A stretch of 64,000 bases of DNA. It comes from Alloscardovia macacae. Lineage in GTDB: Bacteria > Actinomycetota > Actinomycetes > Actinomycetales > Bifidobacteriaceae. Shown in pieces: positions 23,546 to 35,029 of this stretch. The translations under genes and the position numbers were made by a program. Position 1 is the stretch's first letter; each line of letters starts with the position of its first letter. The DNA lies in the NCBI RefSeq assembly GCF_002259705.1, contig NZ_MWWT01000005.1, positions 62,001-126,000 of the forward strand. The letters run 5' to 3'. The notes below the pieces were generated by a model. That model ran no database searches. It was given only the letters and a program-made list of their open reading frames with translations, and was not told the origin of the DNA.

Positions 23546-23634
23546 TGGCGGATGATAAGGGATTTGAACCCTTGGAGGTGTTTAGCCTCACACGATTTCG
23601 AGTCGTGCTCCTTCGACCGCTCGGACAATCATCC
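23546..23634 (-). tRNA. tRNA-Ser (anticodon CGA)
   Basis: 89 bases with encoded CCA. The acceptor pairs 23628-23634 with 23550-23556. The anticodon loop reads CTCGAAA, giving anticodon CGA for codon TCG, and the long variable arm is that of a class II tRNA. Discriminator G as usual for serine. TCG is used often in this window, in keeping with a dedicated tRNA. It points leftward into the bidirectional terminator. Confidence 0.96.
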
Positions 23635-23748: not shown

Positions 23749-25002
23749 CTAAATGGCGCGCAGAACGTGCTGTAGAACGCACGTCGTCTCGCCCTGCATA
23801 ACGATGTTATCGCCGAACTCGCAGCGCCGTACGCGGACAGGGCGCGGCTGTACTACGGACATGGTGCGTTCGTTCACTACCTCGGATGCGCGGTCGATGA
23901 GCGTGTCGTTCACGATGTCTGCCGGGCCGTAGATGGCGATGTCCGTCACATCGAGCAGGCTCACGGACATGGACAGCGCTTTTCCGAGCTTTTCACCCGC
24001 GTCGCGCAGTATATCGGAGCGCCCATCCGTATCCCCGGCGGAAAGATCGCCGAAACGCGCGCGTAGTGCAGGCACGCACAGCGAGGCCTCGAGACAGCCG
24101 TGCTTGCCGCAGACGCACGGCGTGTCGTCATCGTCGATAATCGTGTGACCTATCTCACCTGCAGCGTTATTCGTGCCGGAGACGATGCTGCCATTAATGA
24201 GGACGCCCGCTCCGATGCCCATCGATATCTGGATGAAGATGAGGTTCGGCTCGCCGTCGCCGAAGAAACGTTCGGCGAGCAGTGCGCAGTTAGCGTCATT
24301 ATCGACGGTGCACGGCAGGTTAAAGGTCTCCTGAATAATGCTCGCCAGCGGCACGTTATTCCAGTCGAGGTTACGCGAGTCGATGACAGTGCCTGTACTG
24401 TCTACCACGCCGGGCACAGCGATGCCTATGCCAAATATCTTTCCTGGAGCCTTACTGATGACTTTGCGGCACAGCTCGACCACGATATCCACATCTACAT
24501 CCTTCGGAGAGGCTATGGATATCTCGGCGCGTGCGAGAATCTGACCAGCGAGATTCGAAACGACACCCTGGATGACAAACTCCTGAGACAGGTCCAGCGA
24601 GATGATGTTCCAGTAGTTTGTATCTATCTCTATCTGGGTGCCGCGCTTACCGCGCCGTCCTGGCACGCTTTCCGTGCTTCGACCATTCTCTGTGAGAATG
24701 TGCTCGTCGATCATGGAAGCTACCACTTCCGACACCGATGCGCGCGAAAGGCCTATGCGGCGGCTCACCTGTGCGCGGGAGAGTGCCCCATGCGGGAACA
24801 GGATGTTAAAGATGGCTATGCGGTTATTAATACGCACATCCGTAGGATCGGCCTTCATGCCTTCCGTCTCGAGGACGGAGGAGAAGCCGAAGCCATTCGC
24901 GCTGGCAGAAGTGCCAGTGGAGTGTAGCTCGCCCATACCAGGCGGGCCGACCAAAGCACCCTCTTCTGCGGCTTCGCGCAGAAGAACGTCATCTTCTTTC
25001 AT
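23749..25002 (-). CDS. ROK-family transcriptional regulator, probable LNB/GNB regulator (NagR-like)
   Basis: 417 residues. After a ~50-residue extension comes a winged helix-turn-helix (LSRAQVSRRIGLSRASVSEVV), then the ROK sugar-binding fold with GIGIAVPGVVDSTG, the VDNDANCALLAER motif and the zinc site GHTIIDDDD...CVCGKHGCLE. ROK repressors bind operators until a sugar or sugar phosphate releases them. It is the last gene of a leftward pair diverging from the lacto-N-biose operon, and bifidobacteria use a ROK regulator (NagR) for that pathway, so control of this locus is likely. Start 25002 has GAAGAGGG upstream and overlaps the preceding gene by 14 bases, which supports the long N-terminus. 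Ligand not determined from sequence. Confidence 0.88.
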   Translation of the reverse strand: MKEDDVLLREAAEEGALVGPPGMGELHSTGTSASANGFGFSSVLETEGMKADPTDVRINNRIAIFNILFPHGALSRAQVSRRIGLSRASVSEVVASMIDEHILTENGRSTESVPGRRGKRGTQIEIDTNYWNIISLDLSQEFVIQGVVSNLAGQILARAEISIASPKDVDVDIVVELCRKVISKAPGKIFGIGIAVPGVVDSTGTVIDSRNLDWNNVPLASIIQETFNLPCTVDNDANCALLAERFFGDGEPNLIFIQISMGIGAGVLINGSIVSGTNNAAGEIGHTIIDDDDTPCVCGKHGCLEASLCVPALRARFGDLSAGDTDGRSDILRDAGEKLGKALSMSVSLLDVTDIAIYGPADIVNDTLIDRASEVVNERTMSVVQPRPVRVRRCEFGDNIVMQGETTCVLQHVLRAI

Positions 25003-26455
25003 AATTACCCTCTTCGTCTGGTTTACTTATAAAACCCTGGAATCGGTTACGAGACCAGGTGATGTCCGAACCGTCCGGGTGCCACAGGTAATCATAGGGC
25101 ATTCGGGCGTCGTTGACAAAAATATTCTCCTCGATGCGCGCCACGCCGTCAGCACGGTGGGTGCGTAAAGGCTCGCAGTCGTCCGCCAGAATGAATACGT
25201 TATGGTGGACGTACGCATCTGGATTTCGCGGTATATCTATGGCTCCCACATGGTCATGGTAGGCCACGTTATGATAGAACTGCGAGTTCACTGCTTTTTC
25301 ATTGCAAAACATTACAGTTCCCCCTGAATTTCCGGAGGAGTAGTTATAGCGGTATACAGTGCCGTCGCCGAAATCCGCGTCCCACGCCTGGCCGTCGCCA
25401 TTTCCGCAGTCCGCATTCAGCGTGTCGTACGCTTCGTTATATTCAAAGAGAGCGTCCTTACATCGCCACGGCCAGATGGCGGCTGCTACTTTATCGTTCT
25501 GAGTGGCGGTATAGACAGTGTCACAGATGTCTCGCGCGGCACGTCTCGAGACGTTCGCGCGGATATACGGCGTGTCGCAGTACATGACGGTGATGGCATC
25601 TCCGCCCGCGTCTTCTACCACGTTCTCTTCTATCCGTACGTTCGTCGCGCCATACGTCTGAAGAGTTTCGTGGTCCATTCGTCCATCACCATAATCAAAC
25701 ACATTCGTCCACTGACTTGTAGCGGCGTCGCGCTCGCCGTGGTCGATGTAATTCAGATATGCGGTATATCCCACGGCTATGCCCCAGCGACGTGTGCGCT
25801 GGACAGTGCAGTGGGTGATGCGGATGTCATCGAAGCGCGCGATGTTTGTCAGGACAGTGTCTGGATCGCTCGGGAAGTGGGCTATGGCGTAGATGCCGCC
25901 GTTTGCCATGTGTTTGTTATAGACATTCCCCTCCACGTCATGGACATGAACCCGGTCGATGTGCACGTGGCGCATGGTGCCACCATCCTGAGCTATAAGA
26001 GCTATGCCCGTGCGGTCCATGGCCTCGATGGCGTTATAGGGGCGGCCGTCTGTCGGCTCGCAGGAATTCGCTATGTCGAGGAGACTTATCTCGATGTAGC
26101 TGCAGTCTTTCAGCAGGAGAGTGGTGGAGACATTTCCACAGTACTTATGAGGAGCGCCACCGATGGGTGCTCCGTAGTTTTCGAACCAGATGCCATCTCC
26201 ACGTGCGTCGATGCGCGGCAGAGGAAGGTCTGGGTCTCCGTACTCTGAGATGATGACCGGCGTGTCGCTCGTTCCTGCCACGCCAGATAAGTGCAGGAAC
26301 TGACCTGTAAAGTCACTTCCGCGCTCGAGGAGGATGGCATCTCCTGGCTGGAGCGACACGCCGGTGATCTGGGATAGAGAAGACCACGGCGTGTCGTGAT
26401 GTGTTCCAGCTGAGGAGTCATTCCCATGCAGCGTCGAAAAGTAATAGGTCGTCAT
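24989..26455 (-). CDS. Cytoplasmic right-handed beta-helix protein, possible GH136-like glycosidase
   Basis: 488 residues with no signal peptide. After YYFSTLHGNDSSAGTHHDTPW, the usual start of parallel beta-helix polysaccharide enzymes, the chain is a series of short beta repeats rich in N, D, G and V (PbH1-type). A motif GDGQAWDAD has Asp354 and Asp361 seven residues apart; as I recall, catalytic Asp411/Asp418 of GH136 lacto-N-biosidase LnbX have the same spacing. Similar motifs occur in many uncharacterised beta-helix proteins, so GH136 membership is inference. It is cotranscribed with the ROK regulator and divergent from the LNB operon. ATG 26455 (weak AAGG) is preferred over GTG 26482 (no ribosome site). 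Fold sure, activity uncertain. Confidence 0.75.
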   Translation of the reverse strand: MTTYYFSTLHGNDSSAGTHHDTPWSSLSQITGVSLQPGDAILLERGSDFTGQFLHLSGVAGTSDTPVIISEYGDPDLPLPRIDARGDGIWFENYGAPIGGAPHKYCGNVSTTLLLKDCSYIEISLLDIANSCEPTDGRPYNAIEAMDRTGIALIAQDGGTMRHVHIDRVHVHDVEGNVYNKHMANGGIYAIAHFPSDPDTVLTNIARFDDIRITHCTVQRTRRWGIAVGYTAYLNYIDHGERDAATSQWTNVFDYGDGRMDHETLQTYGATNVRIEENVVEDAGGDAITVMYCDTPYIRANVSRRAARDICDTVYTATQNDKVAAAIWPWRCKDALFEYNEAYDTLNADCGNGDGQAWDADFGDGTVYRYNYSSGNSGGTVMFCNEKAVNSQFYHNVAYHDHVGAIDIPRNPDAYVHHNVFILADDCEPLRTHRADGVARIEENIFVNDARMPYDYLWHPDGSDITWSRNRFQGFISKPDEEGNYERR

Positions 26456-26525
26456 CGTCCTTGCTTTCTGTAGGGTCTGCACACGCTGAATACGCCGGCA
26501 GATAAGGTAAGTTCGTACGGTGTGT

Positions 26526-26656
26526 GGAGAAATTCGCAGACGGCGCGAGATTTCTCCGCGATATGTACTCTAGTTTACTCCATTTTTGGTGAAAAGACTA
26601 GAAGAAAAGGATAATTGTTCGACACCTTGACAAATTATTTTTTTCTATGGTATAGT
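26526..26656. promoter_or_regulatory. Divergent control region of the LNB locus: promoter and candidate operators
   Basis: The rightward promoter is TTGACA (26627-26632), 18 bases, TATAGT (26651-26656) with TG one base before, an extended -10. Three inverted repeats lie around it: GGAGAAAT/ATTTCTCC (26526-26533 with 26550-26557), TCTAGT/ACTAGA (26569-26574 with 26597-26602, with further partial symmetry inside), and ATAATTG/CAAATTAT (26611-26617 with 26631-26638), the last spanning the -35 box. The ROK protein next door is the likely ligand-controlled binder. The leftward promoter is not clear. Confidence 0.6.
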
Positions 26657-26708
26657 CATACACAAGTCGTCGCGAGGGCGCGGCTACCGTCCCGAAGGAG
26701 GGAAAGGA

Positions 26709-28016
26709 ATGAACACAAGAGGAAAGCACCTCGTCGCAGGTGTAGCATCACTGGCAGTCATGGCTCTGGCTCTGGCAGGCTGCGGATCTACGTCCGCATC
26801 CTCTTCCAGTGGTTCTAAGGATGAGAAGGTAGAAATCACGTATCTGCACCGTCTGCCAGATAAGGAAGGCATGACGAAGGTAGATGAAATCGTGAAGAAG
26901 TGGAACGCTGCGAACCCGAACATTCAGGTGAAGGCTACGAAGTATGCCGGCGAAGCGTCGAACATGATGAAGAAGCTCGAAGCAGATGTGAAGGCTGGTA
27001 CGGCTCCAGATCTCGCACAGCTCGGCTATGCAGAAGTGCCAGAAGCATTCACGAAGGGTGTCCTCGAAGACGTGACTGCAGAAGCGGACCAGTATAAGAA
27101 GGACTTCTCTGCTGGTGCATACAGCCTCATGCAGCTGAATGGTAAGACCTTCGGTCTGCCACAGGATGGCGGTCCACTGGTGTACTACTATAACGAAGCT
27201 GCATTCAAGGAGCTGGGCATCGATGTGCCGAAGACTCAGGATGAGCTTCTCGCATCCGCGCAGAAGGCAGCTGCTGCTGGAAAGTACATCATGTCTTTCC
27301 AGGCTGATGAAGCCGGTAACATGCTCACTGGTCTTGCTGGTGCATCCTCGCCATGGTATACCGTCAAGAGCGATAAGTGGAACGTGAACACGAACACGGA
27401 TGGTTCGAAGGCTGTGGCAGATGTCTTCCAGAAGATGATCGATGCGAAGAGCGCTTTCGTGAATCCTCGCTGGGAGCCGAGCTTCGATGCAGCTCTGAAG
27501 GATGGTAAGCTCATCGGTACTGTAGGTGCTGCATGGGAAGCTCCACTCATCATGGATTCCGCTGGTGGTGGCGAGAGCACCTGGAAGGTAGCTCAGCTGG
27601 GTGACTGGTTCGGTAACAAGGGTAAGACTGGTCCAGACGGTGGTTCTGGTGTCGTAGCTCTGAAGGGCACGAAGCATAAGGCGGAAGCCATGAAGTTCCT
27701 CGACTGGTTTAACACTCAGGTGGAAGACCTCACTACGCAGGGTCTCATCGTCTCGGCTACTACTGCTACCGCGAAGACTCCAGATGCATGGTCGAAGTTC
27801 TACGGTGGCCAGGATGTGATGAAGGAGCTCGTCGCTGCGAATAATAACATGGGCGACTTTAACTTCATCCCAGGCTACTCGGCTGTCGGTGCTGCTATGA
27901 AGGAGACTGCTGCGAAGGCTGCAGATGGCTCTGGTAAGGTAGCAGACATCTTCTCCGTGGCTCAGACCACATCTGTGGACACGCTGAAGAACCTGAAGCT
28001 GTCCGTCGCTGAGTAA
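26709..28016 (+). CDS. ABC sugar transporter, solute-binding lipoprotein (LNB/GNB type)
   Basis: 435 residues, family 1 solute-binding protein. A signal peptide ends in the lipobox LALAGCGS, so it is a lipoprotein. The body resembles the GltA/GNB-LNB-binding protein of bifidobacteria, which captures galacto-N-biose and lacto-N-biose I; this specificity is inferred from the operon. GAAGGAGGGAAAGG precedes the ATG. First gene of the operon. A long hairpin after it probably keeps its mRNA more abundant than the permease part. No ATPase gene is in the locus, so a shared MsmK-type ATPase elsewhere must energise it. Confidence 0.9.
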   Translation: MNTRGKHLVAGVASLAVMALALAGCGSTSASSSSGSKDEKVEITYLHRLPDKEGMTKVDEIVKKWNAANPNIQVKATKYAGEASNMMKKLEADVKAGTAPDLAQLGYAEVPEAFTKGVLEDVTAEADQYKKDFSAGAYSLMQLNGKTFGLPQDGGPLVYYYNEAAFKELGIDVPKTQDELLASAQKAAAAGKYIMSFQADEAGNMLTGLAGASSPWYTVKSDKWNVNTNTDGSKAVADVFQKMIDAKSAFVNPRWEPSFDAALKDGKLIGTVGAAWEAPLIMDSAGGGESTWKVAQLGDWFGNKGKTGPDGGSGVVALKGTKHKAEAMKFLDWFNTQVEDLTTQGLIVSATTATAKTPDAWSKFYGGQDVMKELVAANNNMGDFNFIPGYSAVGAAMKETAAKAADGSGKVADIFSVAQTTSVDTLKNLKLSVAE

Positions 28017-28050
28017 GCAGTGCGCTGAGCGCGCACATACTCCATAAGTC

Positions 28051-28131
28051 AAAAGCCCGTAGACCCTCTCAGTGCCCCAGGGCCAGCAGGAGAGATATAC
28101 TCCTCGCTCGAGAAGAGTCTACGGGCTTTTT
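28051..28131 (+). terminator. Long hairpin after the binding-protein gene (partial terminator)
   Basis: Bases 28051-28064 pair perfectly with 28117-28130; the 52-base interior has its own small stem (CTCTC/GAGAG). TTTTT closes it. A further 9-bp hairpin lies at 28148-28167. With permeases of the same system downstream, the likely role is partial termination or 3'-end protection that boosts binding protein levels. Confidence 0.75.
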
Positions 28132-28215
28132 CCACATGAGACATACTGAAGCACGTGGACGTGCTTCGATGCAGAGTATATATACCAGTATTTTCCCCTT
28201 GTGAGGTAAATCATC

Positions 28216-29160
28216 ATGACCGCACAAAAACATACACAGAAAAAGGTGCGTGGCTTCTCTACCAAGCGCCAGAACATCACAGGATGGGCATTTATGACGC
28301 CATTCGCCGTCCTGTTTAGTTTCGTCTTTATCCTGCCTATAGGCTGGGCTATTTACTCGAGCTTCTTCCGTGAGATATCCGAAGGCGGTGGAGCTTACGG
28401 TGGAGGTGAGCTCGTTCATAAATTCGTCGGACTCGATAACTTCATTTACGCTGCTACGTCGGATAAATTCTGGACGGGTGTGGGACGCGTGGTTCTTTAC
28501 ACTGTCATCCAGGTGCCTTTTATGATTATCTCGGCACTGGCTCTGGCCATGCTTATCGACTCATACATCGTGAAGCACGTGACGGGCTTTAGGCTCGGTT
28601 ACTTCCTGCCTTTCGCTATACCAGGAGTCGTGGCGTCCCTCATCTGGGTCTATCTGTATAACGGGCAGATTTCTCCTATCGCGAAGGGGCTGGCAGCTCT
28701 GGGCATTCCCGTGAACTTCTACTCAGGGAACATCGTCCTGCTGTCTATGGCGAACATCACCACCTGGACGTACACAGGATATAACATGCTCATCTTCCTC
28801 GCGGCGCTTCAGGCCATTCCACATGACCTGTATGAGGCTGCACGCATCGATGGAGCGAATGGCTTCCAGATAGCCATGCAGGTGAAGCTTCCGAGCGTAC
28901 GCGGTGCTGCGCTTCTGGCCATGCTGCTGTCCATCGTGGGCACCATACAGCTCTTTAACGAGCCGCAGATCATGCAGATAGCCGACCCGGGTATCTCGAA
29001 ATCCTACACGCCGATGATGATGGCACTGAACACTTCGCAGGGAAGTATCACTCCGAGCGGGGATGGGCCGGCTTCGGCTATAGCTATAGTGATGGCTATA
29101 ATCGCTGGACTTCTCGCTATGGTCTACATTATGGCGGAACGAAAGGTGAATGAATCATGA
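28216..29160 (+). CDS. ABC sugar transporter permease 1
   Basis: 314 residues, six membrane segments, MalF-like. The cytoplasmic EAA loop is visible as YEAARIDGANGFQIAMQVKLP, which docks the ATPase. Co-transcribed with the second permease through a 4-base ATGA overlap. Presumed to import lacto-N-biose and galacto-N-biose with the upstream lipoprotein. Confidence 0.92.
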   Translation: MTAQKHTQKKVRGFSTKRQNITGWAFMTPFAVLFSFVFILPIGWAIYSSFFREISEGGGAYGGGELVHKFVGLDNFIYAATSDKFWTGVGRVVLYTVIQVPFMIISALALAMLIDSYIVKHVTGFRLGYFLPFAIPGVVASLIWVYLYNGQISPIAKGLAALGIPVNFYSGNIVLLSMANITTWTYTGYNMLIFLAALQAIPHDLYEAARIDGANGFQIAMQVKLPSVRGAALLAMLLSIVGTIQLFNEPQIMQIADPGISKSYTPMMMALNTSQGSITPSGDGPASAIAIVMAIIAGLLAMVYIMAERKVNES

Positions 29161-30128
29161 GTACCGTACAGAATGCACAGATGACAGATAAGCAGCGCGC
29201 TCGTGAGCAGGCCCGTGCTCGCCGTAAGGCAGAACGCATTCGTGCGAAGGCGGCTCATGACCTTCCGCGCTCTATGCAGCCGTCGAAGCCAGTGGTGGGA
29301 CTGACCTGGATTATCCTCGTCTTCGCTCTGCTGTACTTCCTTTTCCCTATCTACTGGGCAGTAATAGCCTCGACGAAGAGTCCGTCAGAACTCGTGAGTA
29401 CGAACGGACTATGGTTCGCTGTGGGTCCGGGAGAGATAGCGAATGCCGTGGCGAAGAATTATGCATCCTTGCTCGGCTGGACACAGAACCGTTTCTGGCA
29501 GTGGGTGCTGAACTCCTTTATTTATTCAGGAGTTTCAGCAGCAGTGGGGACGGTCATCGCGGTGATGGCGGGATATGCTACCGCGAAGTTCGACTTTAGG
29601 GGGAAGGGCGTGGCCATAGGCATCGTCATGGGGTGCATGCTCATGCCAGCGGCTCTCCTGACCATTCCACAGTACTCCATCTTCCACTCTCTGCACTTAA
29701 CGAATACGGTACTCTCAGTCATCATTCCATGCTCTGTTTCACCGTTTGGCTTCTTCCTCGGGCGCGTATATGCGCAGAGCTCTGTACCGAATGAGCTGCT
29801 CGAAGCTGCACGCATCGATGGAGCAGGCGAGGCGCGTATCTTCTTTACGATGGTTCTGCGCCTGCTCTCGCCAGCTATGGTGACCATCTTCCTCTTCCTC
29901 TTCGTAGGGGCCTGGAATAACTTCCTTCTGCCGCTGATGATGCTCACGGATGAAAGCCTGAAGCCTATCACACTGGGGCTGTACGGTATGGCATCTCTCG
30001 CTACCTTTAACGAAAAGGGTGCGCTCATGATGGGTGCGCTGCTCGGCGTGCTTCCGCTCATCGTGCTCTTCCTGGGACTGCAGCGCTACTGGCAGTCGGG
30101 ACTTTCGGCTGGTGCAGTGAAGGAATAA
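29157..30128 (+). CDS. ABC sugar transporter permease 2
   Basis: 323 residues, MalG-like, with six membrane segments after a ~45-residue basic N-terminus (REQARARRKAERIRAKAAHD). The EAA loop is LLEAARIDGAGEARIFFTMV. Partner of permease 1; the operon continues to lnpA after 25 bases. Confidence 0.92.
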   Translation: MSTVQNAQMTDKQRAREQARARRKAERIRAKAAHDLPRSMQPSKPVVGLTWIILVFALLYFLFPIYWAVIASTKSPSELVSTNGLWFAVGPGEIANAVAKNYASLLGWTQNRFWQWVLNSFIYSGVSAAVGTVIAVMAGYATAKFDFRGKGVAIGIVMGCMLMPAALLTIPQYSIFHSLHLTNTVLSVIIPCSVSPFGFFLGRVYAQSSVPNELLEAARIDGAGEARIFFTMVLRLLSPAMVTIFLFLFVGAWNNFLLPLMMLTDESLKPITLGLYGMASLATFNEKGALMMGALLGVLPLIVLFLGLQRYWQSGLSAGAVKE

Positions 30129-30153
30129 GGAATTTTATATAAAGGAGATATAC

Positions 30154-32325
30154 ATGACTACCACAGGTCGCTTTACTATCCCGAGCGAGGAGAACTACGC
30201 GAAGGAGACGGGAGAATTGGCAGAACTCTGGGGAGCAGATGCCGTACGAAACAGTGACGGCACGCACCTAGACGCGGACGTTCTCGCACTCGGAAAGAAG
30301 ATATACAGCGCGTACTTCCCGACGCGTGCCCATAACGAGTGGATCAGCCTGCATATGGACGAAACACCGCAAGTCTACCTGCTGACGAACCGTATCCTCG
30401 CGGAAAGCACGAGCGTGGATATCGCGCTTATGGAAAGCTTCTACGAGGAGCAGCTCAGCGTGAACTATGACGTGGATCCGCACCGCTACTGGGAAGTCAT
30501 CGACCGCACGACGGGCGAAGTCGTGGCGCCGGAGCTGTGGAGCGTGAACGTGGAGGATGGCACGGTGCACGTGGATGAGGTCACGCCGATGCATGAATAC
30601 ACGGTGTCCTTCCTCGCGTACATTATCTGGGATCCGGTGGAGATGTATAATCACCTCACGAATGATTGGGGGGATAAGGAACACGAGATTCCATTCGACA
30701 TCTACCATGAGAAGACGCGCGAATTCGTCTTCGAGACTTTCCATCAGTGGCTTAAGGATAATCCGCAGACGGATGTGGTGCGCTTTACCACCTTCTTCTA
30801 CCAGTTCACGCTGCTCTTCGATAACAAGCACCGGGAAAAGGTGGTGGACTGGTTTGGCTCGGCGTGCACTGTCTCTCCGAAGGCTCTGGACGACTTCGAG
30901 GCACAGTATGGTTACCGTCTGCGTCCAGAAGACTTCATAGACATGGGCAGCTATAACTCTGCGTGGCGTATCCCGCGCAAGCCTCAGCGTGACTGGAATG
31001 ACTTCCTGACCACCTTCGTGCGTGCGAATGTGAAGCGTCTCGTTCAGGATACGCATGCGCATGGAAAAGAAGCCATGATGTTCCTGGGCGACCAGTGGAT
31101 AGGAACCGAGCCGTATAAGAAGGGCTTCGAGGAGCTCGAGCTCGACGCCGTCGTGGGGTCGGTGGGAGATGGAACCACGCTGCGCATGATAGCGGATATC
31201 CCAGGCGTGCGTTATACAGAAGGACGCTTCCTGCCGTACTTCTTCCCGGATACCTTCTATGAGGGGAATGATCCGAGCATCGAGGGGCTGGATAACTGGC
31301 GTAAGGCGCGCCGCGCTATCCTGAGGAGCCCTATCTCGCGCATGGGATATGGCGGCTACCTGTCTCTGGCGAATAAGTTCCCGAAGTTTGTGGATACCGT
31401 CACACACATCGCAGACGAATTCCGCACGCTCCACGAGTATACGAACGGTGCTGCTGCTGAGCCAGCTCTGACGGTAGCTCTCGTGAACTGCTGGGGCGCG
31501 CAGCGCTCATGGATGGCCTTCACTGTGGCGCATGCTCTGCCAAATAAGCAGACGCATTCGTACTATGGCATTCTCGAAGCGCTCTCGGGCATGCGTGTGA
31601 ACGTGCGCTTCATCAGCTTCGAGGATATCCTCGAGCATGGCATCGACGAGGATATCGACGTGCTTATTAACGGCGGTCCAGTGGATACTGCTTTCTCGGG
31701 TGGAGACGTGTGGGAGAATCCTCGCCTCGTGGAAATCATCCGCGCATGGGTACGCGCTGGTGGTGCCTTCGTGGGCGTGGGTGAACCATCCTCGGTGAAC
31801 CGTCAGGGGCGCTTCTTCCAGCTGGCTGATGTGCTCGGTGTAGATGAAGAACGCTTCCATACGCTCAGTGTGGATAAGTACTTCCCTCAGACGACGCCGC
31901 GCAGCGAGCACTTCATCACGCGTGATGTTCCAGAAGACTATGAGATAGACTTCGGCGAGCCTATTTTAAACACGTATCCTATCCATGAAGGCGTGACGGT
32001 GCTCAGTGCTCGCGGGGGAGAAGTGCAGCTGGTGGCGAACGAATATGGCGCTGGTCGCGGAGTGTACATCTCGGGCCTGCCATACTGCGCACTGAATGCT
32101 CGTCTGCTCGAGCGTGTGCTCTTCTATGCAAGCCATAATGAGGAGAAGTATGACGCGTGGAGCTCCACGAATCCGGAGTGCGAAGTAGCGCACTATCCAG
32201 AGGCGAAGCTCTTCTGTGTGATTAATAACACCGACCGCGCGCAGGCCACGGATGTGCGCCGGGCTGATGGTACGGTGGAGAGCTTCGAACTCGAACCGAG
32301 CGCTATGGTGTGGAGACACGAGTAG
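30154..32325 (+). CDS. lnpA: 1,3-beta-galactosyl-N-acetylhexosamine phosphorylase (GH112)
   Basis: 723 residues, slightly shorter than the ~750 of B. longum LnpA. It splits lacto-N-biose I or galacto-N-biose with phosphate into galactose 1-phosphate and N-acetylglucosamine or N-acetylgalactosamine. Asp313, in FLGDQWIGTEPY, occupies the number of the known general acid of the B. longum enzyme. The TIM-barrel N-terminal half is followed by Rossmann-like and small beta domains as in the family. Ribosome site AAGGAGATATAC is near perfect. Cytoplasmic, acting on disaccharide brought in by the ABC system. Confidence 0.95.
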   Translation: MTTTGRFTIPSEENYAKETGELAELWGADAVRNSDGTHLDADVLALGKKIYSAYFPTRAHNEWISLHMDETPQVYLLTNRILAESTSVDIALMESFYEEQLSVNYDVDPHRYWEVIDRTTGEVVAPELWSVNVEDGTVHVDEVTPMHEYTVSFLAYIIWDPVEMYNHLTNDWGDKEHEIPFDIYHEKTREFVFETFHQWLKDNPQTDVVRFTTFFYQFTLLFDNKHREKVVDWFGSACTVSPKALDDFEAQYGYRLRPEDFIDMGSYNSAWRIPRKPQRDWNDFLTTFVRANVKRLVQDTHAHGKEAMMFLGDQWIGTEPYKKGFEELELDAVVGSVGDGTTLRMIADIPGVRYTEGRFLPYFFPDTFYEGNDPSIEGLDNWRKARRAILRSPISRMGYGGYLSLANKFPKFVDTVTHIADEFRTLHEYTNGAAAEPALTVALVNCWGAQRSWMAFTVAHALPNKQTHSYYGILEALSGMRVNVRFISFEDILEHGIDEDIDVLINGGPVDTAFSGGDVWENPRLVEIIRAWVRAGGAFVGVGEPSSVNRQGRFFQLADVLGVDEERFHTLSVDKYFPQTTPRSEHFITRDVPEDYEIDFGEPILNTYPIHEGVTVLSARGGEVQLVANEYGAGRGVYISGLPYCALNARLLERVLFYASHNEEKYDAWSSTNPECEVAHYPEAKLFCVINNTDRAQATDVRRADGTVESFELEPSAMVWRHE

Positions 32326-32345
32326 GCGCGGTGAGACGCGGATAG

Positions 32346-35029
<2,684 letters not shown>

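Follow-up and report, generated by a model that had tools for sequence, protein, structure and literature searches.

A GH136 lacto-N-biosidase-like protein beside the lacto-N-biose operon of Alloscardovia macacae, without a recognisable signal peptide or a detectable GH136I/LnbY partner

The founder of glycoside hydrolase family 136 (GH136), LnbX of Bifidobacterium longum (PDB 5gqc), is a secreted lacto-N-biosidase that links lacto-N-biose (LNB) to GH112 metabolism and needs a second protein, the chaperone LnbY (PMC8106489, PMC7019425, PMC11206791). GH136 enzymes in general are likely heterodimers or two-domain proteins (PMC8106489). In ErLnb136 of Eubacterium ramulus (PDB 6kqs), the partner ErLnb136I is fused N-terminally, is part of the active site and gives Tyr145 near it (PMC7335108). 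An intracellular form is known from Roseburia hominis: RhLnb136I and RhLnb136II lack signal peptides, yield an active enzyme only upon co-expression, and occur with GH112 and an ATP-binding cassette (ABC) transporter whose binding protein binds LNB, galacto-N-biose (GNB) and lacto-N-tetraose (LNT) (PMC7335108). B. bifidum has signal-less LnbX/LnbY homologues, a pair thought to be non-functional (PMC11206791; compared here by description only). Cytoplasmic digestion of LNT is also known from B. infantis, which uses the exo-acting GH42 enzyme Bga42A and GH20 (PMC7019425, PMC11206791, PMC10688820). Here we describe a GH136 gene at positions 24989-26455 (minus strand) of a 64,000-nucleotide stretch of the Alloscardovia macacae genome (assembly GCF_002259705.1, contig NZ_MWWT01000005.1, positions 62,001 to 126,000), hereafter the window, in whose coordinates all features are given.

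Judging from sequence and predicted structure, the product of this gene is probably a cytoplasmic, single-chain lacto-N-biosidase that cleaves imported LNT to LNB for GH112, without GH136I/LnbY. An intracellular GH136 enzyme is not new, since one has been published for R. hominis and a signal-less homologue is in print for B. bifidum. The fold and the family were already known, as was the notion of a lacto-N-biosidase acting inside the cell; new are the partner-less state and the existence of a clade with this state beside the LNB operon. The absence of GH136I is more surprising than the intracellular location, and it was not considered in the preliminary description of the window. In the open-access (PMC) literature searched we found no GH136 enzyme described without GH136I.

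The gene reads from an ATG at 26455 to a stop at 24989, with an alternative GTG start nine codons upstream, and encodes 488 residues. Both its sequence and its predicted fold identify it as a member of GH136. The NCBIfam LnbX model (equivalog NF047897) matched residues 2-450 with E 4.5e-142 and 475.5 bits, below its curated cut-off of 2500 bits, over profile positions 44-520 of 1498. The best-matching PDB sequences were lacto-N-biosidases: BsaX (1.3e-127), LnbX (1.5e-123), TnX (2.9e-112) and ErLnb136 (1.3e-104). An AlphaFold2 model made from 13 homologues (pLDDT 89.2, pTM 0.91) was overlaid with Foldseek and VIA-align on these four structures with Z of 45.3, 45.1, 43.7 and 37.9 and a root mean square deviation (rmsd) of 1.7-1.8; the next fold relative had Z 29.6. 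The overlay on LnbX, which the preliminary description had proposed, gave Z 45 and rmsd 1.8, with 47% identity in the structure alignment and the same pair of aspartates, a pair also present in ErLnb136 (Z 37.9, rmsd 1.7 over 420 residues). BsaX and TnX were reportedly expressed with specific chaperones for their structure study. Other beta-helix families were ruled out as best match, GH136 being best by profile, PDB sequence and structure overlay; PF12708 (pectate-lyase-like) had no match in the search of the genome, and the Pfam beta-helix match of the protein fell under its cut-off. A chance match is excluded by the E-values and by 13 uninterrupted homologues of 484-610 residues, counting that of the window, which share this gene arrangement.

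The motif GDGQAWDAD (residues 353-361; 25373-25399, minus strand), recovered from sequence, alignments and conservation, contains Asp354 (codon 25394-25396) and Asp361 (codon 25373-25375), which align with D568 and D575, the catalytic acid/base and nucleophile of ErLnb136 (PMC7335108). Asp354, Asp359, Asp361 and Trp330 were invariant in all 97 labelled GH136 rows (13 from the clade described below, 3 from a second partner-less clade and 81 partnered); two of 96 GH136 open reading frames (ORFs), both pieces of L104 with matches under 350 residues, were left out of these counts and of the tree. From alignment and overlay it follows that Asp354 and Asp361 would lie in the active cleft. In LnbX the pair would be Asp411 and Asp418, in the numbering given in the preliminary description. 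That description had read from the letters a protein of 488 residues with GDGQAWDAD, had pointed to Asp354 and Asp361, seven residues apart, and had suggested a GH136-like beta-helix; the reading frame, the profile, PDB and model comparisons, and the alignment with the published pair all agree with it.

The protein also lacks the features of a secreted, LnbX-type enzyme: neither a signal peptide nor a C-terminal anchor was found by inspection and hydrophobicity. In the stop-to-stop frame upstream of the ATG the highest 12-residue Kyte-Doolittle mean was 0.56, compared with at least 1.98 in 45 of 48 secreted-type rows (classed by locus; the three exceptions are two gene pieces and Varibaculum). 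Nine of 11 named clade loci were scored in the same way and none exceeded 1.11, while the upstream frames of the remaining two, of 11 and 7 residues, are too short for a signal peptide. All 13 clade proteins start at the same place, just ahead of the first beta-strand, and given this common start and the lack of a hydrophobic stretch, the protein is very probably cytoplasmic. Of five secreted-type Bifidobacterium loci compared, four have a signal peptide, long C-terminal domains and an adjoining LnbY, all three of which the window protein lacks; the fifth (L043) has an interrupted gene and no LnbY. The claim that the protein has no signal peptide was therefore borne out, and family, fold, location and neighbours together support the earlier idea of an intracellular GH136-like enzyme in an LNB locus.

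GH136I/LnbY was searched for with two profiles. The narrow one was built from six genes adjoining bifidobacterial GH136 and the wide one from 21 rows, the most divergent being 18% identical to the first. The narrow profile found no GH136I below E 0.03 in any of the 13 clade genomes and recovered it in all nine control genomes with secreted or independent GH136 (E <=3.6e-88), six of which had supplied profile rows and three of which (G023, G052, G055) were independent. The wide profile found none below E 0.04 in the same 13 genomes; it recovered the ErLnb136I domain in PDB (E 6.5e-24, chain residues 66-184) and GH136I in two clostridial genomes that supplied rows (about 1e-56) and in Varibaculum, which did not (8.4e-51). 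We also examined GH136 loci from GTDB genomes, taking the best 80 of 94 relatives. With the six-row profile, GH136I was found within the locus in 65 of the 80 (one of them, L089, on the strength of a 32-residue fragment where its contig ends); 62 of these 65 are on contigs from which no profile row was taken, and 56 of the 62 reached E <=1e-10. The 15 loci without GH136I comprise 11 loci of the clade and those of Mordavella (L099), Claveliimonas (L106), Eubacterium sp. ER2 (L107) and Varibaculum (L102). A genome-wide GH136I search in the genomes of the first three of these genera gave no match at all; in Varibaculum, GH136I lies elsewhere in the genome. At the sensitivity of these profile searches, a GH136I/LnbY gene is absent from the clade, and with it the domain that ErLnb136 carries and the homologue that RhLnb136 must be co-produced with.

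The protein could instead be a GH136 that acts in the cytoplasm but depends on a helper, be it a strongly diverged GH136I, an unrelated protein or a general chaperone encoded elsewhere. The literature cited here, which describes GH136 as dependent on GH136I/LnbY, speaks for this possibility, and so does a lipoprotein gene in the same genome (L045:6032-6817) that is weakly GH136I-like (17.6 bits). We consider it unlikely, given that neither profile found GH136I in the 13 clade genomes at the thresholds above, that the wide profile reaches far enough to find ErLnb136I and that no ORF family of at least 80 residues, window-locus homologues aside, is common to more than five of 12 clade loci; the most widely shared extra family is a ROK kinase. 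Moreover, the lipoprotein looks exported (lipobox by eye) and adjoins a different, secreted GH136-like gene, which we think it serves. The product of that gene, of 826 residues (L045:6772-9252; with its neighbour at about 326.0-329.3 kb of contig G000:C16), matches the LnbX model with E 4.2e-28 and has Glu at the position of the second catalytic Asp. Its neighbours include GH29 and GH95 fucosidase-family genes and an ABC transporter, and it is possibly a variant for fucosylated glycans.

GH136 matches were present in 38 of 189 Bifidobacteriaceae genomes searched, and the signal-less, partner-less type in 13, the window's included; in two of these 13, G041 and G035, insertions split the match into two and three pieces. 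In all 13 the GH136 gene is divergent from an operon with the order substrate-binding protein, permease, permease, GH112. Twelve members have a gap of about 170-600 bases between the two, for which some transporter starts were extrapolated; in B. oedipodis the gap measures 2.1 kb. The 11 named loci belong to A. theropitheci, B. phasiani, B. oedipodis, B. tsurumiense, B. pseudolongum, B. italicum, B. magnum, B. choerinum, B. cuniculi, B. choloepi and B. dolichotidis, and the linkage to the LNB operon is kept across two genera. In nine of the 13 loci the GH136 gene is flanked on its far side by a ROK-family match, one of these matches being partial. This conservation bears on the idea that the protein is non-catalytic, a decayed copy or a sensor. 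Such a role would explain the absent partner, and the same has been suggested for the signal-less B. bifidum homologue (PMC11206791); as all 13 members have invariant catalytic residues, an uninterrupted frame and the operon linkage, we regard it as very improbable.

In a 98-row tree, made by a quick method without bootstrap and unrooted, the partner-less Bifidobacteriaceae rows form one clade of 13 (Shimodaira-Hasegawa-like approximate likelihood ratio support, SH-aLRT, 100), ten of whose rows were flagged for unusual amino-acid composition. This clade lies within a set of 20 (support 98) whose other members are four secreted rows from bifidobacteria, two signal-less rows with a partner, and Varibaculum. 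The interrupted L043 gene was left out of the tree and Varibaculum L102 was unlabelled in it. The three clostridial partner-less rows form a separate clade (support 100), and the partner label changes twice on the tree, compared with a mean of 15.1 when labels were shuffled. Since GH136I is widespread, we infer that the change in the clade was a loss and not a gain, the root itself not being inferred. No partner-less row has a recognisable signal peptide, but signal-less rows can be partnered, as are 33 clostridial ones, mostly of 430-460 residues. The partner-less Bifidobacteriaceae share an insertion at about residues 239-256 (25688-25741, minus strand; from a column comparison with partnered rows), six columns of which are gapped in 72-81 of the 81 partnered rows; secreted bifidobacterial enzymes carry part of it. 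Twenty-nine positions are conserved among the clade proteins but seldom found in partnered rows.

The second partner-less, signal-less clade, from Mordavella, Claveliimonas and Eubacterium sp. ER2, adjoins an ABC transporter. Each of its loci has the end of a GH112 gene at its edge, and a GH20-family gene stands just upstream in L106. As L106 and L107 are nearly identical, this group amounts to two lineages. A partnered intracellular form occurs within Bifidobacteriaceae themselves, at L036 and L037 of two Bifidobacterium genomes (G043 and G054, each about 3 Mb), where a signal-less GH136 gene adjoins an LnbY-like gene, likewise without signal peptide, away from the LNB operon. The B. oedipodis genome, which has the signal-less type, also contains the secreted LnbX-like gene of L043 (G066:C8), broken by an in-frame TAG, and LnbY is not detectable in it by either profile.

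In the window, the LNB transporter/phosphorylase operon (26709-35029, plus strand) is divergent from the GH136 gene. It encodes a GltA-type ABC transporter substrate-binding protein for LNB/GNB (26709-28016; E 1e-183 to PDB 2z8d, the solved GNB/LNB-binding protein; PF01547), two permeases (28216-29160 and 29157-30128; PF00528), the LNB/GNB phosphorylase LnpA of GH112 (30154-32325; TIGR02336 above cut-off, PF09508), a NahK-type N-acetylhexosamine kinase named from its position (32424-33521; PF01636, Pfam APH, E 1.2e-23) and a type-2 UDP-glucose-hexose-1-phosphate uridylyltransferase, GalT (33518-35029; NF003632 E 2e-208, under cut-off). These neighbours fit a route of import followed by cleavage. 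In the mechanism we propose, the GltA-type transporter would take up LNB or GNB and, as we assume, intact LNT or a similar LNB-capped oligosaccharide with lower affinity. The GH136 enzyme would hydrolyse LNT inside the cell to LNB and lactose, with Asp354 as acid/base and Asp361 as nucleophile; GH112 would phosphorolyse LNB to galactose-1-phosphate and N-acetylglucosamine, and the operon kinase and GalT would feed these products into central metabolism. The GH136I/LnbY subunit would have been lost in the clade, leaving an enzyme self-sufficient in folding.

The rest of the pathway was surveyed in the same 189 genomes. GH112 occurred in 59, and among these GH20 was found in three of the 13 clade genomes, one match (G116) having three internal stops, versus 39 of the 46 others. 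Its absence from 10 of 13 clade genomes versus 7 of 46 others gives a Fisher p of 5.8e-5 (hand count). Without GH20, the exo route, in which a galactosidase acts before a hexosaminidase, would leave LNT incompletely degraded unless a hexosaminidase of another family steps in, and an intracellular lacto-N-biosidase would be the natural substitute. The pattern is supporting evidence, not proof. GH42, the galactosidase family of the B. infantis route, is present in 11 of 13 clade genomes, including both Alloscardovia genomes. GH101 (endo-alpha-N-acetylgalactosaminidase) is strong in four of the 13, the window's among them, and weak in one more, and with it mucin-derived GNB is likely a further substrate of the LNB operon.

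The enzyme might be active on another imported glycan: a GNB-capped ganglio/globo-type glycan, a mucin-derived one, or a short LNB-capped one other than LNT. GH101 makes mucin core glycans a likely substrate source for the operon, lacto-N-biosidase activity on ganglioside/globoside sugar chains has been mentioned (PMC7019425), and the animals from which the clade comes may have milk unlike that of humans. On the other hand, most clade genomes have no strong GH101 match, and the pocket loops that correspond to residues 330-341 and 520-543 of ErLnb136, which are shortened in a Lewis a/b-specific enzyme (PMC7335108), are nearly full length in the alignment (12/12 and 22/24 residues present), which fits the lacto-N-biosidase type. 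Activity on such a glycan in place of LNT seems to us decidedly improbable.

Several points weigh against a self-sufficient LNT-cleaving enzyme. GH136 has been reported inactive without GH136I (PMC7335108, PMC8106489), so that a protein lacking this partner might misfold or have no activity, and the signal-less LnbX/LnbY of B. bifidum are thought non-functional owing to their missing signal peptides (PMC11206791). The GH136I-like lipoprotein was missed by both genome-wide searches, which means that the absence of a partner holds only at their sensitivity and that a very divergent one is conceivable; in addition, the genome itself (1.89 Mb) is 95% complete. The GltA protein of B. longum binds LNB and GNB specifically (PMC7019425), a specificity that is not favourable to LNT import through transporters of this type. 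The GH20 association was counted among related species, so that its p-value overstates independence, and covers GH20 only among hexosaminidases. Finally, only three of the 29 clade-specific positions (96, 313 and 459) agree with the second partner-less clade; this gives no sequence sign of a common adaptation and counts against a simple story of convergent replacement. A broader account would be that GH136I was lost at least twice, each time in a cytoplasmic enzyme beside an ABC transporter and GH112, that a self-sufficient one-chain lacto-N-biosidase resulted, GH136I being dispensable for catalysis, and that the loss marks a strategy of "import first, cleave inside" among those animal-associated Bifidobacteriaceae that largely lack GH20. 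We see the case for this broader account as evenly balanced.

On the other side of the GH136 gene lies a co-oriented ROK-family transcriptional regulator (23749-25002, minus strand; PF00480 E 4.4e-44; about 1e-37 to the Mlc and NagC models, under their cut-offs). In its longest reading this regulator gene, a candidate for a NagR-type LNB regulator, shares 14 bases with the GH136 gene at the stop of the latter, and its true start may be further in. This co-orientation, and the divergence from the LNB transporter and phosphorylase, had been noted in the preliminary description and are confirmed by the gene map. The divergent intergenic region (26456-26708) holds a promoter-like TTGACA...TATAGT for the LNB operon, read by eye. 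A palindrome scan of the 13 intergenic regions, scored with a 19-base palindrome drawn from two of the same regions, gave best sites with P <=0.05 against shuffles in eight of 13 (0.045 in the window; range 0 to 0.185). Since the motif is circular and the window's TTGT-N8-TTGACAA-like site overlaps the presumed -35 box, we claim no shared operator for the regulator. A pattern search of the whole genome gave no hits, but its pattern does not cover the window's own site, and its outcome has no bearing on the operator. In L031 the GH136 gene, a ROK regulator, a ROK kinase and a gene of the glucosamine-6-phosphate isomerase family (nagB-like) are adjacent; nagK, nagR and nagB are neighbours in B. 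infantis (PMC9599254). The LNB locus is placed between ribosomal protein genes and rpoB, and at its edge a tRNA-Ser(CGA) gene (23546-23634, minus strand) lies between truA and the ROK gene.

Thirteen natural homologues without detectable GH136I make the claimed need for this partner testable by expression of a single gene, and B. pseudolongum and B. magnum are among the cultured species of the clade. If the enzyme is indeed self-sufficient, a one-chain lacto-N-biosidase would become available for making LNB. Bifidobacteriaceae would then have a further route for LNT, by intact uptake and intracellular cleavage to LNB, which would differ both from the secreted LnbX/LnbB enzymes and from the intracellular GH42 and GH20 route. 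Counts of lnbXY pairs or of secreted enzymes may in consequence understate the number of species able to use type-1 chains.

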